Below are positions 11,613 to 51,549 of a stretch of DNA of 64,000 nucleotides, piece by piece. The notes under the pieces were generated by a model. It saw only the letters and a program-made list of their open reading frames with translations. It was not told the DNA's origin and made no database searches. Source of the DNA: a virus; IMG/VR virus record IMGVR_UViG_3300023257_000008, positions 62,001 to 126,000 of that record. One strand, written 5' to 3'. Both the position numbers and the translations under genes were made by a program. Numbering within the stretch: position 1 is the first letter of the stretch; every line of letters starts with the position of its first letter.

Positions 11613-11617
11613 AAAGG

Positions 11618-11904: not shown

Positions 11905-11911
11905 GTCCCAA

Positions 11912-13969
11912 ATGAGGACGAACACCGACCCGAGAGTGGTGAAGGACAGCGGCATCCAGGCCGAGGGAACCTTCGGGATCTCCTTCGAGAACCAGACGCA
12001 CATCATGATGATCCTGCGTGACACGCTCTACACCGATAAGGTACTGGCGGTCCTGCGGGAGTATGCCTCCAACGCCTGGGACGCCCACCGGGACGCTGGG
12101 AAGCCCGACGTCCCCATTAAGGTGACGTTGCCCACCGTAATGGAACCCAACCTGATCATCCGTGACTACGGGTTGGGGATGTCCGACGACGACGTGTTCC
12201 GCATCTACACCCAGTACGGCGAGAGCACCAAGCGGGACTCGGACAATGCGGTCGGGATGCTTGGCATCGGTTCCAAGTCAGGCTTCGCCTACTCGGACAG
12301 CTTCACTGTCACCTCCTGGCACGGTGGTGTGAAGCGGGTGTACGTTGCGGTGCTGGACGCCACGAACGCAGGCGAAATGAAACGCCTCTACGAGGAAATC
12401 TGCGGGGACGAGACCGGAGTGGAGATCCAGATCCCGGTGCAACCCCAAGACGTCGCTGAGTTCGAGACCAAGGCCCAGCGCCTGTTCCCCTACTTCACCC
12501 CGCTCCCTGAGATCAACTGCACCCTCCCCACGTTGGAGAAAACGGTTGGCACCCACGGCTACTACTCGGGTTCAGGACGCCAGGGCTGGGTCGCCATCAT
12601 GGGTTGCGTGCCCTACCGCATCAACGTCGACCAACTTCCCGCCGATGCAGACGTTTCCTACAGCATCCTGCACAGGACCAGCGGGGCGCTCTTCTTCGCC
12701 ATCGGGGACGTTCAGGTTTCCGCCAACCGGGAGGAACTGAAGTACTCGGACAGTACGAAGAAGGCCCTCATCCGCAAATTCCAGCTCCTCCAGGAAGACT
12801 ACGTTGAGGACATGCTCAAGACCCTGCGGAGCAGGAAGGCCAACCACTGGGAGCGACGCATCAAGATCAGCAACGTCAAACACTCCCTAAAGCTCCCAGT
12901 CCCCGACTCCTTCAAGGAGTTCGCAGCCACCTCGGTGGCCCTGTACAAGCAGGAAGAGGCCCCCGACCTGTTCACCATCATGATGGGGGACCGGGGAATA
13001 GGCCTCCCAGTGAACGGCTACACCAAGCTCGTAATCCAGGATGACCGCCGACCACTGGCTGGCTTTTACCTGGACTACCACGACTTCGTCATTAAGGTGC
13101 CCAAGGGTACCGACTTGGACGCAGTCCGCAAGGAACTGGACGCAGTCCTAGAAAAGGCCAAACTGACGGGCATCCCCATCGAGAACCTGTCCAACTACAC
13201 CTGGGCGGAGCAATACACCCAGACGGGGTCGATACGGATCCCCAACAAGAAACATCAGGTCAAGGCCTTCGCCCTGAAGGAGGACACCCGCTGCTTCCGG
13301 CATCCTTGGTCCGACAACTGGAAGATCAAAAAACGGGAACCGACCGATGTTGACGTGTACATCGTCATGGAAAAATTCCAGGAGGTAGGCAACGAGGACT
13401 TCTACACCCTCTACAGCCAAGACAGAGATCTGGCCAAGGGCCTGGGCATCGAGATGCCTCCCGTGTACGGGTACAAGAGCACGGAAAAGAACCCCGTGGC
13501 CCCCGACACCCTCAAGGGCACATCCTACCGGGAATGGCGGGTCGGATTCTTCCGCTCGCAACTCACCCCTGAGCGGAAGAAGATCCTCCAGACCCTCCGC
13601 TGGGCCGACGTGTTCAGCGACTGCGACTGGGACTTCCGCTCCGTGATAAGAAACACTGATGAGTTCCTGGCCCTCCTGCACCAGGAACTGGGCGGCTGGC
13701 ATCTCCTCTACAAGTACTTCCGCCACTACGCCAAGGCCCGTCGCCTCAAGGTGGACAACAGGAACACCCTGAACAGTCTGCTGCAAACACTGGGGGAGAA
13801 CAGTGTTCCCTACAAGGCTGACATAGCAACGCAGGAAATGAAGGACACCTATCCCCTGTTCGTTGCCCACCGGGGCATCTACAAACTCCGGGGAAAGCAG
13901 GCCAAACTGTGGTTCGATTACATTCGTATGGTAGACCGGGATCATCTGGCGAGCCAGCAGAGTAGTTAG
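11912..13969 (+). CDS. rIIA: rIIA-like GHKL ATPase
   Basis: 685 aa, close to T4 rIIA (725 aa). LREYASNAWDAH near residue 50 is the N-box of GHKL ATPases, IIRDYGLGMSDDDV the G1 box, and GMLGIGSKSGFAYSDSF the G2/lid region. The remainder is the poorly conserved rIIA body. In T4, rIIA and rIIB are membrane-associated and block exclusion by lambda Rex. It is followed 24 nt later by rIIB. The last codons (DHLASQQSS) are written by the next promoter element. Confidence 0.85.
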   Translation: MRTNTDPRVVKDSGIQAEGTFGISFENQTHIMMILRDTLYTDKVLAVLREYASNAWDAHRDAGKPDVPIKVTLPTVMEPNLIIRDYGLGMSDDDVFRIYTQYGESTKRDSDNAVGMLGIGSKSGFAYSDSFTVTSWHGGVKRVYVAVLDATNAGEMKRLYEEICGDETGVEIQIPVQPQDVAEFETKAQRLFPYFTPLPEINCTLPTLEKTVGTHGYYSGSGRQGWVAIMGCVPYRINVDQLPADADVSYSILHRTSGALFFAIGDVQVSANREELKYSDSTKKALIRKFQLLQEDYVEDMLKTLRSRKANHWERRIKISNVKHSLKLPVPDSFKEFAATSVALYKQEEAPDLFTIMMGDRGIGLPVNGYTKLVIQDDRRPLAGFYLDYHDFVIKVPKGTDLDAVRKELDAVLEKAKLTGIPIENLSNYTWAEQYTQTGSIRIPNKKHQVKAFALKEDTRCFRHPWSDNWKIKKREPTDVDVYIVMEKFQEVGNEDFYTLYSQDRDLAKGLGIEMPPVYGYKSTEKNPVAPDTLKGTSYREWRVGFFRSQLTPERKKILQTLRWADVFSDCDWDFRSVIRNTDEFLALLHQELGGWHLLYKYFRHYAKARRLKVDNRNTLNSLLQTLGENSVPYKADIATQEMKDTYPLFVAHRGIYKLRGKQAKLWFDYIRMVDRDHLASQQSS
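13940..13965 (+). promoter_or_regulatory. Promoter-like element inside rIIA 3' end, for rIIB
   Basis: GATCATC-N13-GAGTAG overlapping the final rIIA codons, 28 nt before the rIIB start. This would let rIIB be expressed apart from rIIA. Confidence 0.75.
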
Positions 13970-25468: not shown

Positions 25469-26512
25469 GTGAGGACACCAGCACAAAGGCTGGCCTGCCG
25501 ATACGTCAACGCCATTGAGTTCTCCAACGAAGACGCTCTGAAGGATTATCTGAGGGAACACCCCAAGGCAGACCCGCACAGACACAAGGTCAAAAGCCCT
25601 GATGGTAAGAGCAAAGCCCCCGAGGACAAACCCAAGGGGGGCAAGGGTGTTGGGACGACCGACGTGGAGAAGGCCAAAGAGAAAGCCAAAGGTCTTCCCC
25701 AGGAAGTCCGGGATAGGTTGGACAAATATCATCTTGACGTTGTCGGGGATGACATTGACCAGGCCATCGAAATCGCCAAGAAGTTGAGCGAAGGGATCGA
25801 CAAATCCGCTGACGTCTGCAAACTCTCTCCTCCCGTGTGTGATGGGAACCTGGGGCTGTCCCGTGACAAGATGCCACAGATCCCCGGAGATATGTCCGTC
25901 AAAGAAATGCTGGATGCGACAAAGAAGGATGGCAGTTCCGACGAAGGTGCCCGTGCCAAGGGGAAAGCTGCTGTGGAAGCGGGAGCCGACCCGGATGATG
26001 ACCGCACGATCCTTAATCAAATGTTGGACACTCTCAAGGGCGAAGGCGTGACCGTCAAACCTGAGAAAGTGCCGGTCGGTCAACTCAAGGCAACCCAGAA
26101 GGAGATCAAAGCAGGGAAGACCTTTGGGATGGCAGACTCACATCTGAAGGGCACCTTCCCCAACATCGGGGATCAGATCGTAATCTCCTCCGATGGCCAC
26201 ATTCTGGATGGGCACCATCGCTGGGCCGCTCTCCTGACCATTGACCCCAAGCGCACGATGAACGTGATCCGGGTCGGTGTCACGATGAAGGACATGCTGG
26301 ATCGTGCGGATGAGATGCCCGGTGTTTACCGTGAAGACTTCCAGGGAAAGCCTCTAGCCCTGCCGGACGACATCAAAAAGCGGAAGAAAAGGTACCTCAA
26401 GAAACGGGATAAGGGAAAGAAGAGTTCCTTAAGAACTGGGGTACTACGCCTCGCTCAGACGCATCCGAAATACCGCAGGCACCTCATTCCTATTCTCCGT
26501 CATCACCGTTAG
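25469..26512 (+). CDS. ParB/sulfiredoxin-fold protein with LAxTHPxYRxHL C-terminal motif
   Basis: 347 aa from a GTG. A basic low-complexity linker at 25-70 precedes a helical region. The C-terminal half has VISSDGHILDGHHRWAALL, the GHHRW box of ParB-type nuclease/CTPase folds. The last 25 residues read LRLAQTHPKYRRHLIPILR, closely matching the N-terminus of the protein at 50057-50542. The N-terminal RLACRYVNA also looks like a conserved phage peptide. Likely a virion or DNA-associated protein. Confidence 0.6.
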   Translation: MRTPAQRLACRYVNAIEFSNEDALKDYLREHPKADPHRHKVKSPDGKSKAPEDKPKGGKGVGTTDVEKAKEKAKGLPQEVRDRLDKYHLDVVGDDIDQAIEIAKKLSEGIDKSADVCKLSPPVCDGNLGLSRDKMPQIPGDMSVKEMLDATKKDGSSDEGARAKGKAAVEAGADPDDDRTILNQMLDTLKGEGVTVKPEKVPVGQLKATQKEIKAGKTFGMADSHLKGTFPNIGDQIVISSDGHILDGHHRWAALLTIDPKRTMNVIRVGVTMKDMLDRADEMPGVYREDFQGKPLALPDDIKKRKKRYLKKRDKGKKSSLRTGVLRLAQTHPKYRRHLIPILRHHR

Positions 26513-38857: not shown

Positions 38858-39252
38858 ATGAAGCTATTGTCAGCAGCCGAGTGCGGAAGGACCAGGCATC
38901 AGGCAATGTTCAGTGCCAATGGGAGTACAAACGAGGGGTCATCCATTTCCAAAGTCTGCTCCCCTCTTACTCGAACACTACCGCTCTGGTCGGCAAACTG
39001 GGTGATGAACTCAACCACTTGATGGAACAGTTCGCTAGAAGGCTGGGTTCCAGTGTTGACCCTGTTACAAGGGGCACCATCAAGACAGAGGGGAGCGCCG
39101 AGATTAAGCCAAATGGAAAGAGTCTCATCATCTATGGCATAGTCAGTTACAGGGGTGCCCCTGATGTGAACTCTGAAGCCGTTAACGACGCAGTGAAGGA
39201 AACAGCCAAGCACCTTAGGTTACGTATCAAGCCCGTGGTCTGGTCGGTTTAG
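38858..39252 (+). CDS. Tagged small protein with apparent frameshift
   Basis: ATG at 38858 reads MKLLSAAE, the tag seen on other small genes, and then loses frame; the frame starting at 38881 (GTG) continues as 123 plausible residues (KRGVIHFQSLLPSYSNTT, LIIYGIVSYRGAPDV). Either a frameshift lies near 38880, or the gene uses the GTG and the tag frame is short. An ATG at 38783, in the tag frame, also has a good ribosome site. Confidence 0.45.
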
Positions 39253-39285
39253 TGGGGTACCCTCACTTCTAAACTCACCCCGTTG

Positions 39286-39291
39286 GAGTAG
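39286..39291 (+). promoter_or_regulatory. GAGTAG-only promoter-like site
   Basis: GTTGGAGTAGAC, 25 nt before the ATG at 39317; upstream half not conserved. Confidence 0.4.
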
Positions 39292-39316
39292 ACACATCCA
39301 ACGGAGGACCCAAACC

Positions 39317-39535
39317 ATGACACAGAACTGCGCCAAAAAGATCCAACACTGGAAACCCTTCTGTTATCCCTGCCACACCTGTGGAGCCAAAGCCGTGACT
39401 GTCCTGACCGACATGCCTGAAGGAATGTTTGGAGATCAGGATCTCGCCAAGTGTTCCGCCTGCGGCAAGCAAGGGACTGTTCAGGTGGCCGACCCCGAGT
39501 CGGTCTACATCACCTGGGACGGCGAAGAGGAATAG
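39317..39535 (+). CDS. Small zinc-ribbon protein (72 aa)
   Basis: GGAGGACCC before the ATG. CYPCHTCGAKA and CSACGKQG form a zinc ribbon; acidic C-terminus. Confidence 0.6.
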   Translation: MTQNCAKKIQHWKPFCYPCHTCGAKAVTVLTDMPEGMFGDQDLAKCSACGKQGTVQVADPESVYITWDGEEE

Positions 39536-39555
39536 ACCCACAAGGAAGGTCCGTC

Positions 39556-39807
39556 ATGCCCGAACCGATGCCGTTTAAAACTGCCCAGGATGCTTTCAGC
39601 TTCATGAAGGTCCTCCACAGGTGCGCTCAAGACCGGGGACTGCTGACAGAGTACGACCGGCTCCACGGGACAAACCTCCTGCTCCAAGGAGCACCCCTCG
39701 ATCTCATGGTAGACAAAGCCACCGGACGCCCCACAGGGGAATTCCGACATTTTGCGGACTTCGTCCGTGAAACCTTCTGGAGACCCCTCGAAGATCATCA
39801 CCTCTAG
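39556..39807 (+). CDS. Unknown protein (83 aa)
   Basis: AAGGAAGG before the ATG, 20 nt after the zinc-ribbon gene. Helical, acidic, no family recognised. Confidence 0.5.
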   Translation: MPEPMPFKTAQDAFSFMKVLHRCAQDRGLLTEYDRLHGTNLLLQGAPLDLMVDKATGRPTGEFRHFADFVRETFWRPLEDHHL

Positions 39808-39874
39808 ATTCGGAGTAGCGTTTGTGCAACAAGGGCACCAACGAAAGTGGTTGCCCAAAAGGTAGGTTCGCCAA

Positions 39875-40255
39875 ATGCAACGTTTCCTGACCCAAGTCCT
39901 TCTCGTCACGCTCATCATGGGCTGGTTCTTCCATGTGAACCGCCCGGCACAGAGAGCGTACATGCCACTCTCGTCACCCTACTACATGGGCTTCGCTTTC
40001 GGTTACGCTGACAACTGGCACGACGGCTGGAGCGTCAAGTACGAACTGGTGGCCAGCCGAAAGGAGGTTTCAGCCTGGGTCGACCTCCGCATCCGCAAAA
40101 CCTACACAATGGTCGGCTGGAATACCACAGCCGCAGTCTTCCATTGGCACGTCCTGAACGACTCCGGTGTGATCGACTACTGGTTTGATGAGGACGGAGT
40201 AGAGCACTGGAGACAAGGCGGCTTCACCCTGTGGTCAACAGCCCCCACCAACTAA
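39875..40255 (+). CDS. Membrane-anchored or secreted protein (126 aa)
   Basis: N-terminal signal anchor (FLTQVLLVTLIMGWFFHV) followed by an aromatic-rich beta domain with seven Trp. Weak ribosome site. Function unknown. Confidence 0.5.
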   Translation: MQRFLTQVLLVTLIMGWFFHVNRPAQRAYMPLSSPYYMGFAFGYADNWHDGWSVKYELVASRKEVSAWVDLRIRKTYTMVGWNTTAAVFHWHVLNDSGVIDYWFDEDGVEHWRQGGFTLWSTAPTN

Positions 40256-40366
40256 GACGGGATCGAACACAGATAAAGGGGTATTTGAACAGCAGCCAAA
40301 AACCCACCTGAACCTCAGTTTTTCTCGGTGATTCCTTTATAGCTTCCACATTGGTATAGTGGGGGC

Positions 40367-40567
40367 ATGAAACGAACCATTATCATCCGAGTGACCGCAA
40401 CCGAGTTTAAAACGTCTGATGGACGGGTGATCCCACATTTCATTCCGTTCGATCCCGATGAGGTGCCTACCGTCGAAGAGTTCCAACGGCAGTACAATAG
40501 GTGGCACAAGATCTTTGAAGATCAAGGTTTGATGCTTCCTGCTTCTGGAGACGAAAATGCCGACTAA
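40367..40567 (+). CDS. Small ORF within IS607 element, upstream of tnpA
   Basis: 66 aa; overlaps the tnpA start by 11 nt and lies inside the inferred left end, so it belongs to the element. TGGTATAGT just upstream looks like an extended -10 box of a house-keeping promoter. Reads MKRTIIIRVTATEFKTSDG; function unknown, possibly a leader or accessory peptide. Confidence 0.5.
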   Translation: MKRTIIIRVTATEFKTSDGRVIPHFIPFDPDEVPTVEEFQRQYNRWHKIFEDQGLMLPASGDENAD

Positions 40568-41186
40568 CTGTCTCCTAGCCCTTACTAAGGCAGCAGAAGC
40601 CCTTGGTGTTCATAGGAACACGCTTCGGGATTGGGCAGATGAAGGCAAGTTCCCCCACGTTCGCACCGTGGGTGGGCACCGCCGATTCAAGCAATCAGAT
40701 ATTGACACCTTGCGAGGGGATCTTCCTGTCGACTCCAGTACGGAACGAGTTGCCATCTACTGCCGAGTCAGCAGTCACGACCAGAAGAAGTCGGGCGATC
40801 TTGAGCGTCAAGTCGGGCGAGTTACGACACACAGCGTCACGAAACAGTACAAGCTAGTTGAGGTGCTTCAAGACGTGGGTTCAGGTATGTCCGACACCCG
40901 ACCCAAACTCCAAAAGTTGTTCAAACTGGTCAACACCCATGAGATCGATCGGGTGGTTGTCGAACACAAAGACCGTCTGAGTCGTTTCGGGTTCAACCTG
41001 ATCGAAGCTTACTTCAGCAGCCATGATGTTACCATCGAGTGGGTACAAGAAATGTTGGGCAAGTCCTACGAGGAGGAGTTGGTCGAGGACATTTTGACGC
41101 TCATGTCATCATTTTCAGCAAAAATTTACGGGAAGCGTTCGGCTGACCGACGTAGAGCGAAAAAAGAAGCGGAGGTGGTAGGATGA
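40557..41186 (+). CDS. tnpA: IS607 TnpA serine recombinase
   Basis: 209 aa. N-terminal MerR-like helix-turn-helix (TKAAEALGVHRNTLRDWADE, KFPHVRTVGGHRRF), then the resolvase domain: VAIYCRVSSHDQKK with the catalytic Ser, DVGSGMSDTRPKLQKL and VVEHKDRLSRFGF. This DNA-binding-first layout is specific to IS607. Its stop overlaps the tnpB start. Confidence 0.9.
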   Translation: MPTNCLLALTKAAEALGVHRNTLRDWADEGKFPHVRTVGGHRRFKQSDIDTLRGDLPVDSSTERVAIYCRVSSHDQKKSGDLERQVGRVTTHSVTKQYKLVEVLQDVGSGMSDTRPKLQKLFKLVNTHEIDRVVVEHKDRLSRFGFNLIEAYFSSHDVTIEWVQEMLGKSYEEELVEDILTLMSSFSAKIYGKRSADRRRAKKEAEVVG

Positions 41187-42598
41187 AGTGTCGTATCTTT
41201 CGACTTCATAAGGATACCAACCGTTCCAAGGTTGAAAAACTGGAGGCACTCCATCAGGAATACGTCAGCTACGTCCGCATTTGCGTGCAGACGATGCTCG
41301 ACAACCGGATCTACAACCTTCCGAAATCAGCAAAGCAAACGTTCTTCTCACGGGCTGCGAACCTTACCAGCCAAATTGAAAAGAACGCTAGAGACCATGC
41401 CGTTCAAATTGTAGATACCTGGGCAAAGGGTGTCTATGCCCGTAAGCTGAAGCCCACCATTACCAATTTCAGACACGACGGTACGATCACAAACGAGGAT
41501 GTCAAAGCTCTCTGTACCATCGGGTTGAAGCAGATCAGCAAACCTTGGAAGTTCATCACCCAAGACCACTTGGATGCCTATCACACTCTGTTGGATACTT
41601 ACGGAGGTAACCCACCAGTCGTAAGAGATAAAATTCCGATAAGACTGTCCGAAATGACAGCCCGGCTTGAAAACCCAAGCAAGGCAGTCACAGCAGACTT
41701 TTGGTTGCGGGTTTCTTCGTTAGAAGCTCGCAAATCAGTTTGGTTACCTCTCGTTGGAAATCCTTACGTCCAACAAGCTGACCAAGTCAACAAGGGGCTA
41801 TCAGCCCGTAAAACCAGGAGGGGTTTCTGGAGATTTGAAGCCGTCAGTAAAGATGAATGGGTTGTTCCTGAGGCACAAGAAGGTTGGTCGAAGTTGGGTG
41901 TTGACGTGGGTTTGAACGTTCTAGCAGCTACTTCCGATGGGGTTCTTTACGGTGGATTTGTCAAACCTAAGTTCGACAAATTGTACGCTCGGATCAAGAC
42001 ATTACGGGCGAATCGACAACGACAAGGTCTTAAGGAAAACAGTCCTCGGCTTGATCGATTAGAGTCCCGTCTAACAGGGCTCGTGAAGACTGAGACTGGT
42101 CGTGTCGTAAACACCTTTGTAAGGAAACATCCTGAAACTATATTCGTAGTAGAGGATCTCGATCTGTCTGGTTGTAGGGGTCAGAAGCGTTTTGCTTATC
42201 GTGCGTTACAGACCAATCTGGAGAGGAAAGCTTCTATCGAAAAGGTGAACCCTGCATATACGAGTCAAGAGTGTCCTTCTTGTGATTACGTTCATCGTGG
42301 TAATAGGAGATCAATTAGTTTCCAATGCCGCTGTTGTGGCAGGGAGGCTCACGCTGATTGGGTAGGAAGTTCTGGTGTGCTCAGACGTTCTGGGGACGAA
42401 CACATTAGGACTGGTGATCACCCTCGTAGCGTAAAACGAGTGCTAAGAGAGCGATTCCGTCTTCGACGGACCAGTTCCTTGGGATTCGGGAGGTTAGAGC
42501 AACCTTCGTCCTCGCCCTTACCGTTGGGCAGGAGGCTTACTACCGTTGAATTAGGTTTACCTGACGGCGGCACAGCTTCAAACTTGATGCTCACCTAG
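41183..42598 (+). CDS. tnpB: IS607 TnpB RNA-guided nuclease homologue
   Basis: 471 aa. LGVDVGLNVLAAT gives the first RuvC Asp, IFVVEDLDLSG the Glu, CPSCDYVHRG...CRCCG the zinc ribbon and EAHADWVGSSG the last Asp. The C-terminal tail of about 90 aa is basic and Ser-rich and likely coincides with the omega-RNA-coding region. Guide sequence would start right after position 42623 (AAAGTCATCC...). Confidence 0.9.
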   Translation: MKCRIFRLHKDTNRSKVEKLEALHQEYVSYVRICVQTMLDNRIYNLPKSAKQTFFSRAANLTSQIEKNARDHAVQIVDTWAKGVYARKLKPTITNFRHDGTITNEDVKALCTIGLKQISKPWKFITQDHLDAYHTLLDTYGGNPPVVRDKIPIRLSEMTARLENPSKAVTADFWLRVSSLEARKSVWLPLVGNPYVQQADQVNKGLSARKTRRGFWRFEAVSKDEWVVPEAQEGWSKLGVDVGLNVLAATSDGVLYGGFVKPKFDKLYARIKTLRANRQRQGLKENSPRLDRLESRLTGLVKTETGRVVNTFVRKHPETIFVVEDLDLSGCRGQKRFAYRALQTNLERKASIEKVNPAYTSQECPSCDYVHRGNRRSISFQCRCCGREAHADWVGSSGVLRRSGDEHIRTGDHPRSVKRVLRERFRLRRTSSLGFGRLEQPSSSPLPLGRRLTTVELGLPDGGTASNLMLT

Positions 42599-42655
42599 AT
42601 TTAGGTAGGTTTTAAGGAACGGTAAAGTCATCCCGTTGACGACCCCGGAGAAACC

Positions 42656-42898
42656 ATGACACGACTACTCACGATCATCCTACTCCTATTGGCTGCCCCC
42701 ACAATGGCACAGGAGATTCCAACCACAGCCACCACATCCTGGGGGACACAGGTCGAGTTCCAAACTACCGAGGAAGGAACAAGGGCACGAATCGCACCCA
42801 CCAGCCCCTGGCAACCCTGCTACCTGGTACCAGCGGTCGGAGGTGGACACGTGCTCGCCTGCATCGGAGTAGGTAGCTTCACGGTGGGTGAACAATGA
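42656..42898 (+). CDS. Secreted small protein with signal peptide
   Basis: 80 aa. MTRLLTIILLLLAAPTMAQE is a textbook signal peptide with an AxA-like cleavage site. The mature part has two Cys. Overlaps the next start (ATGA). Opens a four-gene plus-strand set; a spanin or envelope role is possible but not shown. Confidence 0.6.
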   Translation: MTRLLTIILLLLAAPTMAQEIPTTATTSWGTQVEFQTTEEGTRARIAPTSPWQPCYLVPAVGGGHVLACIGVGSFTVGEQ

Positions 42899-43218
42899 TC
42901 GCCACAATCAATGCTCTGGGCTGGCTCCTGGGAACCCTCGTTGGATGGGGTCTTGTCTTTCTCGTTCTGGGGGCCGTTTGGGCAGCCTCCAGGACACAAT
43001 GGAAACGACCAGCCCCCGTAAAAAGATGGGAGGACCAAGTAGACCTGACCCTGAATCAAAGGACATGCTGGAGATGTGGGGCCGAGAGGGTCTCCGTGAA
43101 CAAGGAGGACAATCCTGTCCTCACATACGACTGCGGAACCAAGGTCTACATCGACATGGACATCGAACGGATCGTCAACATACTGGGGAAGGACTGCCAC
43201 CGGAAGGACACACCATGA
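42895..43218 (+). CDS. Membrane protein with Cys motif (107 aa)
   Basis: N-terminal span (LLGTLVGWGLVFLVLGAVWA), then CWRCG and a distant DCG/DC pair. Coupled by ATGA at both ends. Confidence 0.55.
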   Translation: MIATINALGWLLGTLVGWGLVFLVLGAVWAASRTQWKRPAPVKRWEDQVDLTLNQRTCWRCGAERVSVNKEDNPVLTYDCGTKVYIDMDIERIVNILGKDCHRKDTP

Positions 43219-43361
43219 TCGCCACAGCGGTAAATGCGGATCTCATCGTAGAATGGACCTACATAATAAGCGGCGGGCTGGGTGTCTTCGGCCTAGTTGC
43301 CCTCTATCTGGGGCTGAAACAGTGCAAACCTGAAGACAAATCAACACAGGACACACCATGA
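43215..43361 (+). CDS. Small membrane protein (48 aa)
   Basis: ATGA overlap with the gene before and after. One span (IISGGLGVFGLVALYLG). The leader GGACACACCATGATCG is repeated at the next gene. Confidence 0.5.
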   Translation: MIATAVNADLIVEWTYIISGGLGVFGLVALYLGLKQCKPEDKSTQDTP

Positions 43362-43813
43362 TCGACCGCTTCTGGATCCTAATGGACGAATACGGCAACC
43401 CCATCTACACCCACAAAGACCGGAAACGGGTCGAGATCATCGGCAACCTCAAAGCCACAGCCTACGTCCCGGAAGACACCAAGGATAGGACACAGGAAGT
43501 GGTGGATACCCACCACCTTGCACTCTCCATGGCCTGCATCCTACTCCAACGAGCAGTGACAGGGGACGACAAACCCAACCGAGCCGAGGTCGACGCCGCA
43601 AGACGCACGCTGCTCCGTAAAGCAAAGGAACTCTACGACCGGACAAAGACGGACGGTGGACTGGACGACCTCTACATGGCGGACTGGAACGTCGGCGGCT
43701 GGACCCCACCACTACCGAAGAGCCCCTACACGGACGGAGACCCCTACGAGTTCCATGGAGTGGACGACTGGGCCGGATGCCCCAAAGGGCCTTGCAAGGA
43801 CCAACCCGACTGA
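43358..43813 (+). CDS. Unknown protein (151 aa)
   Basis: Same GGACACACCATGATCG leader as the gene before. Reads MACILLQRAVTGDDKPNRAE, helical and acidic; two Cys near the C-terminus. Function unknown. Confidence 0.55.
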   Translation: MIDRFWILMDEYGNPIYTHKDRKRVEIIGNLKATAYVPEDTKDRTQEVVDTHHLALSMACILLQRAVTGDDKPNRAEVDAARRTLLRKAKELYDRTKTDGGLDDLYMADWNVGGWTPPLPKSPYTDGDPYEFHGVDDWAGCPKGPCKDQPD

Positions 43814-43826
43814 TTTACACTGTAAA
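43814..43826. promoter_or_regulatory. Palindrome TTTACACTGTAAA
   Basis: Perfect 6-bp arms around one base, just after a stop codon and between convergent gene sets; a candidate operator. Confidence 0.35.
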
Positions 43827-43859
43827 CACAGGGGGACACAATGGAAGTCCGCATCAGCC

Positions 43860-44096
43860 TCATCCAGCACGACGGAAACGACCCCACACCAGATACAGTT
43901 CCTCCAGGATCCCCCACAATAAAGGAGAACCGTCAGCATCCTTCAAGTCAGGTGCAGCAAAGACGTCGTGAGAGAACTCAGACAAGTCACCCCAATCCCG
44001 ACAGACCTCCATCTCAAGGTCCAGCCTGTCAATGGCGATCCGAGTGTAACCAGCATCCCCACACACACGGAGGAAGATCTTGGTGACGTCATTCAT
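43860..44096 (-). CDS. Unknown protein (78 aa)
   Basis: Start overlaps the upstream stop (ATGA). Reads MNDVTKIFLRVCGDAGYTRI, then an acidic part. An antisense frame starting at 43841 also has a plausible leader, so the strand is less than certain. Confidence 0.45.
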   Translation of the reverse strand: MNDVTKIFLRVCGDAGYTRIAIDRLDLEMEVCRDWGDLSEFSHDVFAAPDLKDADGSPLLWGILEELYLVWGRFRRAG

Positions 44097-44443
44097 GGAA
44101 GCTCCCGAACAGTGTGATCCTCAAACAAAGAAGCCTGACGATCAACTTGAAAAAGTTGAGGATTGATCCCAGCTTCCCGAGCCATACGTCGAGCATCATC
44201 ACGCATGAAAAGAGTTGCCTCCTTGGTCAAGCCCCTGAGAAACACAACCCGACCTGTGTCAGCCGCACACAAGGCAGCTAAAAGAGTTGTCGTGGTCCGA
44301 CCCGTTTGCCTAACCGCCAACTCCTCCACACTATAGGACTTTCCTTTTCGCCAGTCCTGAGCAAAAGCCTTTTTACGATATTCCTCTCTAGGAAGACACC
44401 CACACCGGATAGCCATTGCATCAATTTGCTGGTTAATGTTCAT
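44093..44443 (-). CDS. Possible P-loop protein (116 aa)
   Basis: RQTGRTTTTLLAALCAA resembles the GRTTxxLLAAL variant P-loop of small phage proteins, followed by RVVFLRGLTKEA. No full ATPase domain is present at this length. Function unknown. Confidence 0.5.
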   Translation of the reverse strand: MNINQQIDAMAIRCGCLPREEYRKKAFAQDWRKGKSYSVEELAVRQTGRTTTTLLAALCAADTGRVVFLRGLTKEATLFMRDDARRMAREAGINPQLFQVDRQASLFEDHTVRELP

Positions 44444-44511
44444 TTGTGATCCCCTATACCACTACGAAGATTACTAACTCAAAACTGAGACCCCCACAAA
44501 CCACAGCATGA

Positions 44512-44913
44512 TCACACCTCCGTCTCCTTGAAGTACAACGGATGCCAATCCAGTGCCTCCATACAGAGTGGACAGTCCTCATCCCCAGACTTCCAACCCT
44601 TCTCCTCCAAAGCCTCACCACGCAAGCCACAGGCCGAACACTCACCCTCGACCTCCAGCAGGATTGGAGGCCAACCCTTCTTCGGACCATCAGCCAACGG
44701 TTCCAGCAGTCCTACCAAGATGCCCAGCATCCCCACAGCGTAGGAACTGACACCCGTAATGAGCTTCCCCTCCTGGTAAGCAACCTGACACCTCGGGTGC
44801 CTTGCCAGAGCCTTATTGCACGGCACACGATGCTCAATGAGAGCCCCCATCGCTACAGGGTCCGCATCCAGCAAACTGTTCAGGTACCCAAGAGCCTTCG
44901 CTACATCACTCAT
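44512..44913 (-). CDS. Unknown phage protein (133 aa)
   Basis: Start at 44913 after GGGGGTG. LNSLLDADPVAMGALIEHRV, then CNKALARHP and a C-terminal CSACG...CPLC zinc ribbon. The conserved-looking N-terminal part recurs in phage proteins of unknown role. Start overlaps the end of the next upstream gene by 8 nt. Confidence 0.6.
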   Translation of the reverse strand: MSDVAKALGYLNSLLDADPVAMGALIEHRVPCNKALARHPRCQVAYQEGKLITGVSSYAVGMLGILVGLLEPLADGPKKGWPPILLEVEGECSACGLRGEALEEKGWKSGDEDCPLCMEALDWHPLYFKETEV

Positions 44914-45370
44914 CGCCCACCCCCGTTTGAAGACTCTGGCGTCTCCTCGAATTTTGCTCCCGCAAACGTTCGAGATAGCCCCTGTAGATCTTCGTTTGGA
45001 AAGCAAGCCAGATGAAAAGATCTCCACGAAGAGATAAATGCTCCTCCCCCAGAAGATCCGTCAATTCGACTGCTATTGCTTCGCACGTCTCAGGTTTGAG
45101 TTGCTCGGTAAACTTTGTGGCAAAGTCCACAACATCATGGGGCTCTCCCCACGGATCAGTCGGAATCAACCACCGGACGCATGCCCGAGCTACACGTTCC
45201 AACTCGTCTTCATGTCCCAGGTATGCAGCCCGTATCTCAGAAGACGGATCAACCTCAAGCATCCCAGCCACGACATCAGTAGGACCGTTGCGTTGAAGGC
45301 AACGAAGTTTGATGCCCCTTGTTACAGCACGCTGGTACCTCAGCTTTTGCTCTTTCCTTCCTGTAGACAT
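44906..45370 (-). CDS. Unknown helical protein (154 aa)
   Basis: Start ATG at 45370 after GGGGGGG. Reads RAYLxHEDE-type charged helices and LSLRGDLFIWLAFQTKIYRG. No family recognised. Confidence 0.55.
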   Translation of the reverse strand: MSTGRKEQKLRYQRAVTRGIKLRCLQRNGPTDVVAGMLEVDPSSEIRAAYLGHEDELERVARACVRWLIPTDPWGEPHDVVDFATKFTEQLKPETCEAIAVELTDLLGEEHLSLRGDLFIWLAFQTKIYRGYLERLREQNSRRRQSLQTGVGDE

Positions 45371-45451
45371 AAGCACCCCCCCCTTGGATCACTCTACCCC
45401 GAACGCCCCCTGTACGTGACACCCCACGTAGTTAAAAGCACAGGAGGCCCA

Positions 45452-45670
45452 ATGTCCAACTACGACCCATTCTCCCCAGTGTCCATCACCCAACACATGA
45501 TCCAGAACCAGATACCACTCTTCACTATGATGCAGGAGCTACGGGCAGTGTGCGGCTGGGACGAGTACCAGGGGAACGAAGACCGCCCCTATGACGCTAC
45601 CCCGATGCTTATGGTAGGCATACTCCGCCGTAGGCTAAAGGACGCCGGAGAGGCTACCCTGCTGCGCTGA
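45452..45670 (+). CDS. Unknown small protein (72 aa)
   Basis: AGGAGGCCC before the ATG. Reads FSPVSITQHMIQNQIPLFTM, then GWDEYQG. No family recognised. Confidence 0.55.
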   Translation: MSNYDPFSPVSITQHMIQNQIPLFTMMQELRAVCGWDEYQGNEDRPYDATPMLMVGILRRRLKDAGEATLLR

Positions 45671-45718
45671 GACGGTAGATCCCCTGTAGACCCCGCTCCT
45701 CTGACAGGAGAGACCACG

Positions 45719-45754
45719 ATGAAGCTTATGACAGCGAAGGAGAACACAGCATGA
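45719..45754 (+). CDS. 11-codon tag peptide MKLMTAKENTA
   Basis: AGGAGAG before the ATG and an ATGA overlap with the next gene. The peptide is a copy of the tag that opens the next gene (MKLMSTKE); the DNA ATGAAGCTTATG is repeated. Either an upstream leader peptide or the scar of a duplicated tag. Confidence 0.45.
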   Translation: MKLMTAKENTA

Positions 45755-46143
45755 AGCTTATGTCAACCAAGGAAGTCCGACTCAAAACCGCCAGCATCCA
45801 AGGCCACGTTTTTGGAAAGGTCAAGGAACGCCCCCAGGGCGGAATGACCGTCGAGTTGGAACTCATGGCCGACACCGAGATGCTGAAAACGGTGGATGAC
45901 GTTCAGGCCATCATCCTAAGACACCAGCAGTTGGTCGGCCCCAAGTTCAACCTTCTCGTCCAGTTGCCCGGCAGATGGGTAAACCATCCCAAGTCCCTGG
46001 ATCTCGTAGCAACCACGGGAAGGGGCCTCAAGGTCTGGAGTACGTTCCTGCTCAGTACTGCCGAACAGGTGGACACCGAACAGGTACTAGCGACCATCGC
46101 AGCCTATGCGAAAAAGCATAAGGCTGCTTTCTACGCATCCTAG
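45751..46143 (+). CDS. Tagged unknown protein (130 aa)
   Basis: Begins MKLMSTKEVRLKTAS, a variant of the MKLLTAxDY tag. AAGGAG lies within the upstream peptide. Beta-rich body (MTVELELMADTEM, KFNLLVQLPGRWV). The 200 nt that follow hold no gene I can support. Confidence 0.6.
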   Translation: MKLMSTKEVRLKTASIQGHVFGKVKERPQGGMTVELELMADTEMLKTVDDVQAIILRHQQLVGPKFNLLVQLPGRWVNHPKSLDLVATTGRGLKVWSTFLLSTAEQVDTEQVLATIAAYAKKHKAAFYAS

Positions 46144-46344
46144 ACCCCCGTTTCAATCTCAGCCTCTCAAAAAAACCCCAGACCCTTTGGCAGATCTTCA
46201 GATCCCAGATTGCTTTTGGATCGTCATGTGCAGATGCAGGGACTACGAAGAGAGCAGCCCTGAACCGTAGCCCAGGGCTCCGCATGGACGTATCCACACG
46301 GGTGGAAGCCATAGGATAGGGACGGAAGACCGTAACGTCAAGGT

Positions 46345-46896
46345 TTAGTAGGCCCACCCCATGTCAAACAGGTACTTGAACCGTACAGAGCTACGACTGA
46401 TCAGGCTTTCCCAGTGTCTACAAAGACTCTGTAATGTCTCCGGATGCACGTCCCGCAGGACCAGCGGGTATTCCAAACGAGCGATAACCCACTCATCCTC
46501 CTGACTAATGACAGCCGTAGAAGGATCTGGAACTTCAAGGGACAGCACCCTGGGGCTGTGAACGATGACAGGGACTACAGAACGATGGGAACTAGGGAAT
46601 TCCCTTCTACACCGCTCTCGGGTCTCATCCGTGAGTTTGGTTTGGTAGAGACTGACCACAAGCTCTAACGAAGCCTTTCCTCTCATGTCCAAAGCCTTGA
46701 GGATGAGGCTTCTTCGAAATTCCTCCCGAGGAGCCTTTTCGTCAGGAGGATTTGTTTCTATCTCCTCCGCAATCATCTCATCAAAGGCTTGGTCGTCATC
46801 CGAAGTCTGTTCCTGAAGCAGTTTGAAGAAGGCTGCGGCTTCCTCTACCCCGTCAAACTGTAGTTCTCCCGCAGTCCCGTTCTGCAACCTAATCAT
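46345..46896 (-). CDS. Unknown protein (183 aa)
   Basis: GGAGGAAC before the ATG at 46896. Acidic N-terminal half, then RSLILKALDMRGKASLELVV. No family recognised. Confidence 0.55.
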   Translation of the reverse strand: MIRLQNGTAGELQFDGVEEAAAFFKLLQEQTSDDDQAFDEMIAEEIETNPPDEKAPREEFRRSLILKALDMRGKASLELVVSLYQTKLTDETRERCRREFPSSHRSVVPVIVHSPRVLSLEVPDPSTAVISQEDEWVIARLEYPLVLRDVHPETLQSLCRHWESLISRSSVRFKYLFDMGWAY

Positions 46897-47697
46897 TTTG
46901 TTCCTCCTACCCTCACCAATGTCGTCTCTGATCACCATACCGCCGTAGTGGAGACAGGACAGGTTGGACACCAGGGTTCCAGCCTGTACGGGGGTACTGG
47001 AGCTAGGGAGAGGGCCTACGGTGCAGGGAAGCCGTAGCGTTGACTGTAAGCCCCGCAAAGGGGGATGGCATAGGGATAACGGATAGGGTTAGGAAACGGC
47101 TACGTGGGGCCATAGCGGGCGTCAGGGAGGGTTTCAGGGGTTGTACCCTATCCTGGAAGGGGGATTCAAAGTAGGCGTTTCAAAATCAATACAGGTCCAA
47201 TACGCCTTTTTGGGACTCCAGATCACTTAGGCGCAGTTTTCCAGTCGGTTTCGCTTGACTTTGGGGTTGGGAGCGGAATGGGGGCTAACTCGACATCGAG
47301 TTAGTGGTTAGAGACGACAGAGAGACGAAACTGGGGGAGACGAGGGAGAGAGTTTTACACAACAGACAGAGGAGAAGGACAAAGGTGAGGGAGACAGGGG
47401 GTGAGTGGAAAGACAGGGGAGGGGTGAGTAGACAGGAGCGAGTGGGGAGGACTCATGGGTCGTGGGTGTGTCGTTTCCTGAGTCCTCTCACATGACGGGC
47501 GGAGGAGGACACGAGGAGAGATGTCCCGGTGTCTTCCTCAGCCTGTCGTGTCTGGTGTGTGGGGGACGGGGGCATCACTAAGACTTTGTGGTTGGGGTGT
47601 CTCTTCGTGTCGTGCGTCACGGTCCCACAGGGGAGGGTGGGGAGAACTCTCTGTCTCTGCTTATCGTGTGGCCAGGACAGCCATCCCAATGGGTGGC
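46897..47697. other. Long intergenic region, strand-biased composition
   Basis: About 800 nt without a convincing gene. The part 47300-47460 is almost pure A/G on the plus strand (GGGAGACGAGGGAGAGAG and similar). It holds the palindrome at 47285-47304. A 63-codon plus frame here is Arg-rich and reads the purine tract, so I do not call it. Confidence 0.5.
47285..47304. promoter_or_regulatory. Perfect palindrome CTAACTCGACATCGAGTTAG
   Basis: Nine-bp arms around a 2-nt centre, at the start of the purine-rich tract and where plus-strand C-richness gives way to G-richness. Candidate operator or replication-related site. Confidence 0.5.
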
Positions 47698-48000
47698 TCA
47701 GTCGGTGAGCATCTGTTCGTAGTCGGTTGCTGTGAGCAGTGCTGCTCTTCGGCTGCTGGGGATGGTGTTTTGTTTGACGACCTTTATGATGTCGTGGGGG
47801 TCCACCTTCGTCTTTGTGACGTAGACGAGATCATCCAGGAGGTCATCCATCTTCACTGAGATCCCCTCGTCCTTCACGTACTTCTGGACGAGGGATTTGA
47901 TGAGCGCTGGTTTGTGCAGCCTGTCGAGTACTCTCTGCATCTCTGCGGCGAGTGCTTTGGCATCCTGAAGGGGGTTGGCTCTTCCTGCGTTGTGGCTCAT
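47698..48000 (-). CDS. Tagged protein, paralogue of the 49235 start
   Basis: 100 aa. Shares with 48924-49235 the order MSxxA...LQDA, ISVK(M/L)DD(L/I)L(D/E)D, KVDP and NTIPSS/HTIPSS. C-terminus ALLTATDYEQMLTD is the tag in C-terminal position. AGGAGACC before the ATG. Confidence 0.65.
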   Translation of the reverse strand: MSHNAGRANPLQDAKALAAEMQRVLDRLHKPALIKSLVQKYVKDEGISVKMDDLLDDLVYVTKTKVDPHDIIKVVKQNTIPSSRRAALLTATDYEQMLTD

Positions 48001-48023
48001 TGTGGTCTCCTGTGCTTGTCGTT

Positions 48024-48431
48024 TCATTTGGATTGCGTCTGGGTCAGGTTATTTTGCATCATCCATCGATAGAGACGGACGCTGATGTCGTTGGCTGTGA
48101 GGGAGGTGTTGTAGTCGATGTTCAGTGGGAGGGGTTTGAGGGTGACGTTGCTCAGTCGTGACTTAGGTTGGATCTCCAACTCGATTTGGTTCTTGGTGAA
48201 ATTGGCTTTCATGACCAGCATGACATCTACAACGATTTCGTCGTCTCTGACTTTGAAGAGCAGGTTGGTCTTGGCCTTCACAGTGCCGCCGAAGGGGCCG
48301 AATGGTTTGGCTAGTTGTGTGGCCAGGGACCGGACAAACCGGAAGGCTGTGGCTATCCAGAGATCTTCCCAGAAGTAGCTTGCTCCGGCTGTCAGGGTAT
48401 GTTCGTAGTCGGATGCTGTGAGTAGCTTCAT
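48024..48431 (-). CDS. N-terminally tagged protein (135 aa)
   Basis: Begins MKLLTASDYEHTLTAGASYF; GGAGACTGAG before the ATG. Beta-rich body (VVDVMLVMKANFTKNQIELE). The same frame stays open upstream to 48566 and reads well (KPFDKLPRKRIPLDPED), so an internal tag in a longer protein is the alternative. Confidence 0.6.
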   Translation of the reverse strand: MKLLTASDYEHTLTAGASYFWEDLWIATAFRFVRSLATQLAKPFGPFGGTVKAKTNLLFKVRDDEIVVDVMLVMKANFTKNQIELEIQPKSRLSNVTLKPLPLNIDYNTSLTANDISVRLYRWMMQNNLTQTQSK

Positions 48432-48535
48432 CTCAGTCTCCGGGGTTGTCTGATGGTTGTAGTTTCCCATACGGAGCTTCTCCAAGTCTTCGGGGTCTAA
48501 GGGGATCCGTTTTCTCGGTAGTTTGTCAAAGGGTT

Positions 48536-48916
48536 TCACAGTCCTGACCTCGTTTTCAGATCCCAAGGTCCCCAGTGTCCATGTCTGAGGATGTTCTTCT
48601 GGGCTTGCCTCCAGGTATAGACCTTGAGGTTGTGGATCTCAGCTATCTGTCCCAGGGCGTAGTAGACGGCCTTGGGCATCACGATATGTCTTCCATTGGA
48701 CAGATCGATAACATTGTTCCCGTCCTCATCCCAGGCGTGTCCGAAGGTTTTCCCTTCTAGTGGTCCCTGCCCGGCGACTTCCCCATGTACAAGTCTGATG
48801 CCGTGGTCACGTCTTCCGGACCCCATGATGTATTTGCCAGCAGCTTCGTAGCAGTTGCCCAGTGCTGAGGTTTTATCCAGCGCTGCTTTGTAGTCTGCTG
48901 TGGTTAGGAGTCTCAT
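48536..48916 (-). CDS. N-terminally tagged papain-like protein
   Basis: 126 aa. Tag MRLLTTADYKAAL, then GNCYEAAGKYIMG with Cys, LVHGEVAGQG, GHAWDEDGNNVIDLSNG with His and Asp, and PKAVYYALGQI. This Cys-His-Asp order resembles a family of small phage papain-like or transglutaminase-fold proteins; catalysis is not shown. Confidence 0.6.
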   Translation of the reverse strand: MRLLTTADYKAALDKTSALGNCYEAAGKYIMGSGRRDHGIRLVHGEVAGQGPLEGKTFGHAWDEDGNNVIDLSNGRHIVMPKAVYYALGQIAEIHNLKVYTWRQAQKNILRHGHWGPWDLKTRSGL

Positions 48917-48923
48917 CGGTGTC

Positions 48924-49724
48924 TTAGTCTCCGTCCGTGAGCATGTTCTCGTAGTCGGATGCTGTCAGGAGTGTGGCGTGTCTTCCGCTGCTGGGGATGG
49001 TGTGCTGGTTGACCAGTCTCATGATTTGACGGGGGTCGACTTTGACCCTGGTGGCGACGTAGATGATGTCTTCCAGGATGTCATCCAGCTTCACTGAGAT
49101 CCCGGCCCTTTTCACGTACCTCTCCATGAGGTCCTTGATGCTGCGTGGTTTGAGTATGGAGCTGAGTTGCCCCTGGATGTTTGCTGCGAGCTGATTAGCG
49201 TCCTGGAGAGTGATGGCTGATGCTGTCTGACTCATTGGTGTCTCCTGGGTCGCTACCCTGATGGGCACGTCGAAGAAACTAAGGGAGGGTCCGTTTTTGA
49301 TCCTGATTCCCTTCCTTTTTGCCTCAGCTAGAAACTTCCGCACATTGGCCAGGTTGTTGCCCCCTTGGAACAACAGGACAACGGCCCGCCCGGACATGAA
49401 CGGATGAGCGTCGTGCTGGGACTCCAGTTCCTCTCTCACAAAGTAGCTCAGATCCTCGGGGTACTCTACAGTTAGCGCTATGTCAACCCCCGTACTGTAT
49501 ACGGGCCATCCCAGTTTCTTAGCGGCCTCCAGGAAGGCTGTTCCTTTCGCTCCATCTCGTTCACTAAACAACACTACCGTGTCCCTGCGACCCCTCTCAA
49601 CTCTGCCGTGGAACTTGGAGGCCAGCTTCCGAACATCCGTGGACGAGGGGCCGTCCCCAACGACAATGAAATGGTCTACCCTACCTGCTTGTTTCGTTGC
49701 TGTAACGACAAGAGTGTTTGACAT
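48924..49724 (-). CDS. Two-part ORF ending in the tag; internal start at 49235
   Basis: 266 aa. The first part (to about residue 163) reads LVVTATKQAGRVDHFIVVGDG, with an NADAR/Rossmann-like feel but no firm match. The second part starts with an in-frame ATG at 49235 that has its own AGGAGACACC and matches the paralogue at 47698-48000. C-terminus LLTASDYENMLTDGD is the tag. So either a fusion or a gene nested in frame. Confidence 0.6.
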   Translation of the reverse strand: MSNTLVVTATKQAGRVDHFIVVGDGPSSTDVRKLASKFHGRVERGRRDTVVLFSERDGAKGTAFLEAAKKLGWPVYSTGVDIALTVEYPEDLSYFVREELESQHDAHPFMSGRAVVLLFQGGNNLANVRKFLAEAKRKGIRIKNGPSLSFFDVPIRVATQETPMSQTASAITLQDANQLAANIQGQLSSILKPRSIKDLMERYVKRAGISVKLDDILEDIIYVATRVKVDPRQIMRLVNQHTIPSSGRHATLLTASDYENMLTDGD

Positions 49725-49789
49725 GGGTGCCTCCTACCCCTTCAGGATTTATTAGGAGATCACCGTGCCAAGCGGGAGGGGTGTACTGG

Positions 49790-50017
49790 TTATTTGGCTT
49801 TGGAGGCTTTGATAAGTTCCTTGTCAATGGCCAGCACGAGGCTTCGGACTGACCGATCTGCTTTGCCTTCAAGAAACTTCTTAGGTTCGTCTACGCCTAG
49901 TGTCTTGCAGGCGTCCAACAGAACTTTACGCACTGCCTTGTCCGCTTTCATCAGGTAAGGGGAGTAGGCTCCCTTTTTGGAAGTGTCTTCGTATTCGGCT
50001 GCTATCATAAGTTTCAT
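49790..50017 (-). CDS. N-terminally tagged small protein (75 aa)
   Basis: Begins MKLMIAAEYEDTSKKG; AGGAGGAGCC before the ATG. Lys-rich helical body (DKELIKASKAK). GAGTAG at 50030-50035 lies 12 nt upstream of the start. Confidence 0.6.
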   Translation of the reverse strand: MKLMIAAEYEDTSKKGAYSPYLMKADKAVRKVLLDACKTLGVDEPKKFLEGKADRSVRSLVLAIDKELIKASKAK

Positions 50018-50056
50018 GGGCTCCTCCTGCTACTCTTTGGGGGGGTTATTGGAGGA

Positions 50057-50542
50057 TCACCGTACAGACGGGGCTACGTTTTCTTCTTCCATCCAGGTCT
50101 GAAGGGTTCGGACCACGGCGTCTGCTATTTTACTGGGTGTTGCCACAGCGCTAGAGCTTTTCCCAATCAAAGAGAAGGTGATCAGGGATCGGGTGTTGGC
50201 CCCTTTGCTGAGGACGTCAACTCCAAGGATCTGTCCTGGCCATCCGATGGTAAAACGTACTTGGGTTTTGTGTGGCCTACGCATGACTTCACTGACGTCT
50301 GTACGGGTCACAAATGTTTCAAGACTCAAGTTTGACTGATTTATAGCAAAACCCAGTCGTTTCAGCCTTGCCACCACCTGGGGTAAGATCGTAGCCAACA
50401 CCCAATTGTTAGTCGCTTGTTGCCAGACGTCCACCCAGCGCTCCCCAGAGGCTGTTCTGAGCAGGGGGGCCAGGTGTGTCCTGTATTGGGGGTGTGTTGT
50501 CGCCAGGTTGGTCAAACCTGCAAGCAGTCTTTTGTTTGTCAT
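50057..50542 (-). CDS. Unknown protein with N-terminal LAxTHPxYRxHL motif
   Basis: 161 aa. Residues 11-29 (TNLATTHPQYRTHLAPLLR) nearly repeat the C-terminus of the ParB-fold protein at 25469-26512. Body is beta-rich (KTQVRFTIGWPGQILGVDVL). GGGGAGACCC before the ATG. Confidence 0.6.
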   Translation of the reverse strand: MTNKRLLAGLTNLATTHPQYRTHLAPLLRTASGERWVDVWQQATNNWVLATILPQVVARLKRLGFAINQSNLSLETFVTRTDVSEVMRRPHKTQVRFTIGWPGQILGVDVLSKGANTRSLITFSLIGKSSSAVATPSKIADAVVRTLQTWMEEENVAPSVR

Positions 50543-50638
50543 GGGTCTCCCCTTCCAGTCTACTACGAATAGGTTTATAGGCCCACTATCGTTACCTGGC
50601 GGGTACTCACAGCATCTAGGGGTGACCGCTGTGGCCCT

Positions 50639-50992
50639 CTAGCGAGGCGTGAGGACAGTGGAGACGACGATGCCACGGGCGAAGAGGAGATCGAGTAGGA
50701 CGAACGATGCCGTCAGCGTCTCCTTTGTCTGCAGCTTCGTCCAGCCTTCGGAAGTCAGGACTGCTGCGAGCATGTTCTCTCGGTGGTAGTAGTCGAGATG
50801 GTTCGTCAGTACGCTACGGAGACTGACGACAGCTTCAGTGATGCCTTTGCCTTGTCCCATTAGATTGAAGCAGCCGCATTTGGCGAGGATTTTATCGGGA
50901 TCGGAGATGGAAGCCAACATTGTGGCTTCGGAGAATACCCTAATGATGTCACCGTCGAAGAGTAGCAAACCGTTGTCGTGGGTGTAGATCAT
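50639..50992 (-). CDS. Unknown protein (117 aa)
   Basis: GAGGAGGACATC before the ATG at 50992. Reads YTHDNGLLLFDGDIIRVF and TASFVLLDLLFARGIVV. Two CCCACAGAATCT repeats lie about 90 nt upstream. Confidence 0.55.
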   Translation of the reverse strand: MIYTHDNGLLLFDGDIIRVFSEATMLASISDPDKILAKCGCFNLMGQGKGITEAVVSLRSVLTNHLDYYHRENMLAAVLTSEGWTKLQTKETLTASFVLLDLLFARGIVVSTVLTPR

Positions 50993-51077
50993 GATGTCCT
51001 CCTCAGTGAACTGTCGCTTTCCTTCGTTACCCTTGTCAAGGTTACCCCGGTGACGCAGAGATGTTCGAGTCAGGGCA

Positions 51078-51108
51078 CCCACAGAATCTAGGGTGACCCA
51101 CAGAATCT
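51078..51108 (+). repeat. Tandem CCCACAGAATCT repeats
   Basis: CCCACAGAATCTAG and CCCACAGAATCT separated by GGTGA; first members of the family that is dense at 59.5-62.4 kb. Confidence 0.7.
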
Positions 51109-51123
51109 GAAATGCTTAGGGTT

Positions 51124-51549
51124 TTAGTGGGCGGGACTGGACATGACTTTGAGATGGTTCTTTCGTGCAAAAGTTTCCACAACGTTTGTGAGACCCGGAT
51201 CGTTATCCCGAGTACGGAAGGTTGCTTCAACGAAACCCCCAAGATGGTTTCCACGTGCTGTTATGACGGGGACACGAACCGCTGCAAAGTCCCAGCGCAC
51301 CCCTTCCCTTTGCAACATTGCCAACAGTTGTGTTTTCAGTTTCTCCGTTATTTCATCCAGTCCATCCACCAGATAACTGACACCACGCGTACTCATACTT
51401 GACCCGGCATCAACCTCAACGGTAACGGTTGCCGTTGTTTTTTCTCTGAGTGAGAAAACCTTTAGGTAGAGGCTCGCCCCATTGATCGACAGGTTGACAC
51501 CGACACGATTAAGCATTCCCTTGTAGTCGTTTGCCGTCAGTAACTTCAT
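51124..51549 (-). CDS. N-terminally tagged protein (141 aa)
   Basis: Begins MKLLTANDYKGMLNRVG; GAGGAGAAAG before the ATG. Beta-rich body (TTATVTVEVDAGSSMSTRGV). The intergenic 51550-51709 shows no gene. Confidence 0.65.
   Translation of the reverse strand: MKLLTANDYKGMLNRVGVNLSINGASLYLKVFSLREKTTATVTVEVDAGSSMSTRGVSYLVDGLDEITEKLKTQLLAMLQREGVRWDFAAVRVPVITARGNHLGGFVEATFRTRDNDPGLTNVVETFARKNHLKVMSSPAH

Follow-up and report, generated by a model that had tools for sequence, protein, structure and literature searches.

A short terminal peptide shared by dissimilar small proteins of a large uncultured phage as a candidate docking tag for head cargo

A cluster of tagged genes

The IMG/VR virus record IMGVR_UViG_3300023257_000008 (G000; 188,175 bases) contains a cluster of small genes whose products share a short peptide, (M)[KR]L[LM]TAx[DE]YExxL, at one or the other end. 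This peptide, here termed tag A, was analyzed within a stretch of 64,000 nucleotides (the window; bases 62001-126000 of the record), in the rest of the record and in other viral contigs. The presence of RIIA, an RNA ligase, a nicotinamide adenine dinucleotide (NAD)-dependent DNA ligase and NAD salvage genes suggests that the record belongs to a large tailed phage, which, as with all of the phages compared here, is uncultured. Tag A has five N-terminal and two C-terminal strict carriers (coordinates refer to the window unless marked; ORF, open reading frame; aa, amino acids):

51511..51549, minus strand: N-terminal tag A MKLLTANDYKGML of gene 51124-51549 (141 aa), with the ribosome site GAGGAG upstream
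49982..50017, minus strand: N-terminal tag A MKLMIAAEYEDT of gene 49790-50017 (75 aa), with the ribosome site AGGAGGAG
48927..48971, minus strand: C-terminal tag A LLTASDYENMLTDGD at the end of ORF 48924-49724
48878..48916, minus strand: N-terminal tag A MRLLTTADYKAAL of gene 48536-48916, with the domain GNCYEA...HGHWGPWDL behind it
48393..48431, minus strand: tag A MKLLTASDYEHTL at the N-terminus of gene 48024-48431
47701..47739, minus strand: C-terminal tag A LLTATDYEQMLTD at the end of gene 47698-48000 (ORF to 48027), a paralogue of the C-terminal part of 48924-49724
G000:34918-35463, outside the window and 75 kb away: N-terminal tag A MKLMTAAEYREML..., absent from the preliminary description of this DNA

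All of the peptides listed in that preliminary description are present where it had placed them, and the minus-strand entries of its N-terminal list hold, while the three on the plus strand (38858, 45719, and 45751) are partial copies without the tyrosine (Tyr). The C-terminal tag is also present in the 47698 and 48924 proteins, which had been presented as separate cases; the two are paralogues (57% identity over 106 aa) and the C-terminal use of tag A therefore counts only once. The probable start of each is an internal AGGAG-ATG, at 48000 for the 47698 carrier and at 49235, giving a 104-aa product, for the 48924 carrier. The 48431 gene has a good ribosome site (GGAG) and an alternative GTG at 48539, overlapping the upstream stop, from which the tag would fall at residue 37. 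Scans of the tagged proteins of the window against PHROGs and Pfam returned no family, neither the 51549 protein nor the C-terminal pair had relatives in viral contigs, and the structure model of a C-terminal carrier was too poor for use.

Tag A lies at protein ends and outside the folded domain

In the window, there were six exact matches to ATG-[KR]-L-[L/M/I]-[T/S]-[A/T]-x-[D/E], with none in 100 dinucleotide shuffles, and six matches to the tag A core including Tyr, compared to 0.07 ± 0.26 expected. As had been proposed, the search was extended to all proteins predicted from the 188-kb record, which contain seven copies of the core L[LM][TSI][AT]x[DE]Y (0.034 expected from within-protein shuffles; maximum, 2 in 2000), always ≤15 residues from a protein end and including the copy 75 kb from the others.

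The proteins behind the tag had been described as dissimilar, and the five N-terminal carriers indeed have no mutual similarity past the tag, though the C-terminal pair does. The possibility that all carriers are distant members of one family, tag included, which had been named in advance as a finding that would count against a transferable tag, thus applies to the two C-terminal carriers only. For the N-terminal set it is already contradicted, both by the dissimilarity past the tag and by the occurrence of the 48916 family elsewhere without it, and it retains hardly any plausibility.

The 48536-48916 protein has 16 viral relatives and a further one in a contig assigned to a bacterial bin, which align only from about residue 12-20 onward, and tag A is therefore not part of the domain behind it. 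Several of the relatives start right at the domain and the rest have other N-termini, none with tag A, including one (L010) with VANRYLES, a sequence similar to the tag C described below. In an AlphaFold2 model of the 48916 protein, the tag is a low-confidence separate helix (residues 6-14), followed by a loose linker (14-19) and then the domain. A fold search with the domain returned no significant match, the weak ones (E above 0.05) including several papain-like cysteine proteases or deamidases, and it would be a guess that the domain is a Cys-His-Asp enzyme. Some of the relatives, from marine phages, are fused to a zeta-toxin-type kinase region. A further short peptide, FDxLPKKRV, precedes the conserved domain in L010 and L011 and starts the next gene (window 48530) in this phage.

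Of the codon pairs compared over the seven tags A, 46 were identical, 55 differed synonymously, and 46 differed non-synonymously. The distant copy (record 35463) has 12-14 of 24 nucleotides in common with the other tags, and the 48431 and 47698 tags are identical at 22 of 24. Because the codons differ mostly at silent positions, the peptide, and not merely the DNA, appears to have been kept, and the pattern is better explained by selection on the peptide than by recent copying of the DNA, while some neighboring tags (48431 and 47698) may be recent copies as well. This local likeness among neighbors, along with a 32-bp tandem copy at 45719/45751, would be expected if the shared start were a translation-start cassette or recombination hot spot that spreads between genes, the peptide itself having no role. 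Such an origin is improbable in light of the mainly silent codon differences and the low identity of the distant copy, the copies at C-termini and inside proteins, and the unrelated peptides that fill the same slot in other phages.

Different tags in the same slot

An all-against-all comparison of protein ends in this record identified a second peptide, tag B (LRxxLIRLAxxxPxLRxxLLPLLKxA), at three N-termini and one C-terminus. The metagenomic phage LR745208.1 (485 kb) has approximately 11 copies, and the proteins carrying them differ behind the tag. Across eleven other large phage records, a tag B profile matched 5-20 copies each, at either end, with at most one copy in any of the remaining records. 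Of 49 copies examined, 41 were N-terminal, four C-terminal, and four internal, with the N-terminal count biased upward because start codons were picked near the tag where several were possible. Three more tags were defined, tag C (RVAxRYLxA), which is found at the C-terminus of two proteins, tag D (M(x)nYDYDRRxxA), and tag E (MxLLREYIRELLTEA). A first terminase family model had no matches; another matched 15 of the 23 records compared, and the relatives are therefore tailed phages.

The same slot can be occupied by different tags. A linker, EFxxEEALKxYLxEHPKADxxxHxVK (H-P-x-A-D core), is preceded in this phage by tag A (record 35463) and by the tag C-like RLACRYVNA (window 25469), and, among 30 loci, by tag B in five and by tag C in 11-13 (classes assigned by eye). 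For ADP-ribosyltransferases (ARTs) of the ART-PolyVal family, collected independently from 23 records with Pfam, the N-terminal slot in five phages holds tag B (G013), tag C (G019 and G025), a tag C-like sequence (G010), or a DYDRR start (G030, twice). The DYDRR start of the two G030 ARTs led to the prediction that other G030 proteins would begin the same way, and tag D is present at the N-terminus, or close to it, in eight G030 proteins (two being the ARTs) and in four G033 proteins, with no matches to a reversed-pattern control in either. In the contig L172, the gene overlapping the stop of the 48916 homologue has tag E at about residue 36, and the corresponding gene of this phage, when read from the overlapping GTG, has tag A at residue 37. 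The two downstream proteins have no detectable similarity, and the correspondence is therefore limited to a similar place in the gene order, with orthology not proven.

The suggestion that tag A is a transferable signal usable at either end is borne out by its position outside the domain, the other tags in the same slot, and the recurrence of C-terminal use with other tags, and a role of the tags as addresses is well supported. A degradation signal, which had also been suggested, is unlikely, as both ends are used and the tag is kept on many proteins. Cleavage during maturation has some basis in the A-x-D/E or T-A-D within tag A and in the head protease of phage SPN3US, which cuts after A-x-E (PMC10052503). 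However, the residue at this position is D rather than E in over half of the strict tags, tag A has no conserved cleavage site, tags B-E are without a common cleavage motif, and a cut at a C-terminal tag would take off only a few residues; a proteolytic signal, for maturation or degradation, is accordingly about as improbable as the spreading cassette, if not slightly more so.

Several observations on these tags stand apart. L172 is binned as Candidatus (Ca.) Peribacter but is probably a phage contig within a bacterial bin, and contains a series of overlapping genes that begin with tag E, which also occurs between domains. An acidic protein of LR745208.1 (L046:27462-28844) has two tag A-like segments (LIKACDYEDAL and LLTAADYTAAI) and repeats of PLSDLPEELQDNVKDPPESVKKLKEEM; a segment resembling that of this protein precedes tag B in L069. 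A looser tag C-like motif search of the L011 record was uninformative (29 matches compared to 20 in the reversed control).

Tagged and untagged proteins

Among 79 tagged proteins, the few Pfam matches were to ART-PolyVal, DRAT (also an ADP-ribosyltransferase), DUF2958, and pentapeptide repeats, with a ParB-like nuclease (ParBc_2) just under its cut-off. The effector domains (ART-PolyVal and DRAT, with ParBc_2 below the cut-off) were seen on some relatives carrying tags B, C, or D, and the effector argument is based on these relatives, since the tag A carriers match no family. Of the six ARTs, five have strict tag matches and one a near match, while none of 28 terminases, PhoH proteins, helicases, and other ATPases of the same records is tagged (strict tags, 5/6 vs 0/28; Fisher p = 2e-5, or 1e-4 without the ART record chosen via its own tag). 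Two L172 proteins that were considered ARTs by eye received no support from Pfam and PDB searches and are not claimed as such. ART and ParB domains are characteristic of polyvalent proteins, a group predicted to be packaged and injected (PMC5512222).

These distributions bear on whether the tags instead dock proteins to some other shared place during infection, such as a phage-built compartment, a membrane, or a hub protein. A shared slot, the use of either end, and interchangeable tags fit any single binding partner, and the sorting of proteins into a nucleus-like compartment is known from giant phages. The pathway to it depends on the importer PicA and a region of the cargo that is exposed at the surface, with no short terminal peptide described in the available part of that report (PMC11087766). 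The absence of tags from terminases, and from PhoH proteins and helicases, both plausible clients of such a compartment, along with their presence on ART effectors that act on the host, makes a destination outside of the virion unlikely, though less so than the cassette or cleavage explanations.

Other features of the record

The window also contains tag B genes and partial copies of tag A:

50444..50533, minus strand: N-terminal tag B of gene 50057-50542, within the tag A gene cluster (E 2.4e-14 for the profile match in this record)
25469..26512, plus strand: a gene with two tags, the tag C-like RLACRYVNA (25487-25513) and H-P-K-A-D linker (25517-25606) both N-terminal, and tag B (26423-26509) C-terminal
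45751..45774, plus strand: partial tag A MKLMSTKE, without Tyr, of gene 45751-46143
45719..45754, plus strand: tag-only ORF of 11 codons (MKLMTAKENTA, then stop) with a strong ribosome site, its TGA overlapping the ATG of the 45751 gene (ATGA)
38858..38881, plus strand: partial tag A MKLLSAAE (MKLLSAAEC), in a different frame from the 123-aa protein 38881-39252

The 25469-26512 protein has a ParB-like DGHHRWAA motif in its middle, noted by eye and without a Pfam match. The 45719 ORF looks like a 32-bp tandem duplication of the start of the 45751 gene, and the mismatch in frame at 38858 is a probable frameshift (natural or from assembly) or decay.

TnpB-like transposase genes are numerous (window 40557-42598; G000 12075-13358, 39298-40578, 132569-134035, and 152650-154826, among others), and two of them are paired with a MerR-like serine recombinase; this is a heavy transposase load for a single phage fragment. 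In the window at 4381-13969, NAD synthetase-like and nicotinamide phosphoribosyltransferase-like genes adjoin an HD phosphohydrolase, RNA ligase, and RIIA, a possible NAD-centered counter-defense block.

Comparison with known head-targeting signals

The preliminary description had compared tag A to the capsid-targeting sequence of phage T4, in which internal proteins IPII and IPIII carry a packaging signal of about 10 aa (PMC9958956). As with that sequence, which has a related start in IPI, tag A consists of about 10-15 N-terminal residues that are common to different small proteins and separable from the domain. The T4 signal differs in that tags A, B, and C also occur at C-termini (A on the 47698 and 48924 proteins, B on four proteins, and C on two), in the larger number of tagged proteins per phage here, and in that no protease or scaffold was found here. 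Tag E has a weak similarity to the IPI-III N-termini (p 0.004-0.23, uncorrected). In phage P1, the first 30 residues of DarB are enough to package a reporter, and a short N-terminal stretch likewise sends an effector to the head (PMC9024508), though the Dar proteins yielded no consensus and the tags have a clear one common to many proteins.

The tagged set also resembles the polyvalent proteins of phages and conjugative elements in its ART-PolyVal and ParB-like domains, and in the fusion of the 48916 domain to a zeta-toxin-type kinase, but consists mostly of small single-domain proteins, and shared terminal tags are not mentioned in the portion of PMC5512222 available. N-terminal targeting of ejected head proteins has been proposed for the propeptides of the giant phages SPN3US and phiKZ, which are mostly 100-250 residues long and cleaved (PMC5694885, PMC10052503), compared to 10-30 residues for the tags. 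The tag peptide strings that were tried do not occur in the open papers of the library searched.

On balance, we lean towards tag A being a short and transferable tag for docking, equivalent to several others used by different lineages of giant tailed phages, that loads cargo into the head for injection. The analogy to T4 packaging remains the best reading insofar as the carriers that could be identified are mainly ART and ParB-like proteins of a class predicted to be injected, but not at the level of sequence. Several results weigh against this interpretation. Tag A has no significant alignment to the actual T4 IPI-III N-termini (p 0.06-0.95), and C-terminal use is foreign to both the T4 and P1 signals. 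The head as the destination is deduced from a few identifiable domains, most of the tagged proteins having no family. A T4-type prohead protease (Peptidase_S77) had no match in 22 records, where the control was silent too. The window's record had no match to the terminase model and no head gene among the proteins scanned, which point to a fragment of a larger genome in which the packaging genes could not be compared. A scan of all viral contigs with the tag A pattern recovered only two near-identical contigs of the same phage and scattered single matches (one internal stretch of another protein and lone N-terminal matches without companions), with none in the other tag B phage records tested, and tag A is confined, as far as known, to one phage population.

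Tag A would thus be an analogue of the T4 signal, and membership in that family is not claimed. Each tag is probably a short amphipathic helix with one binding partner per phage, for which the scaffold or inner core of the prohead is the likeliest candidate and through which 5-20 effector proteins per phage would be loaded into the head and injected together with the DNA. The C-terminal and between-domain copies would do the same job because the partner would read the peptide rather than a free N-terminus. The mode of action would be like that of the capsid-targeting sequence of the T4 internal proteins or of P1 DarB; as tag A differs from the T4 signal in sequence and is also used at C-termini, it is described as working like that signal, not as one of its kind.

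Implications for giant phages

More tentatively, and with somewhat less confidence than for the docking of head cargo, giant phages may use a modular addressing code, with a lineage-specific tag and receptor, in which tags at either end or between domains allow effectors to join or leave the injected cargo by tag swap. Should the tags mark injected cargo, a simple sequence rule would be available for listing the effectors that uncultured giant phages inject, the majority of which have no known family, and the tags would also show how such cargo is recruited and exchanged. The presence of different tags on homologous ARTs allows a direct test. Tags active at either end could be of use as handles for loading proteins that are to be delivered.

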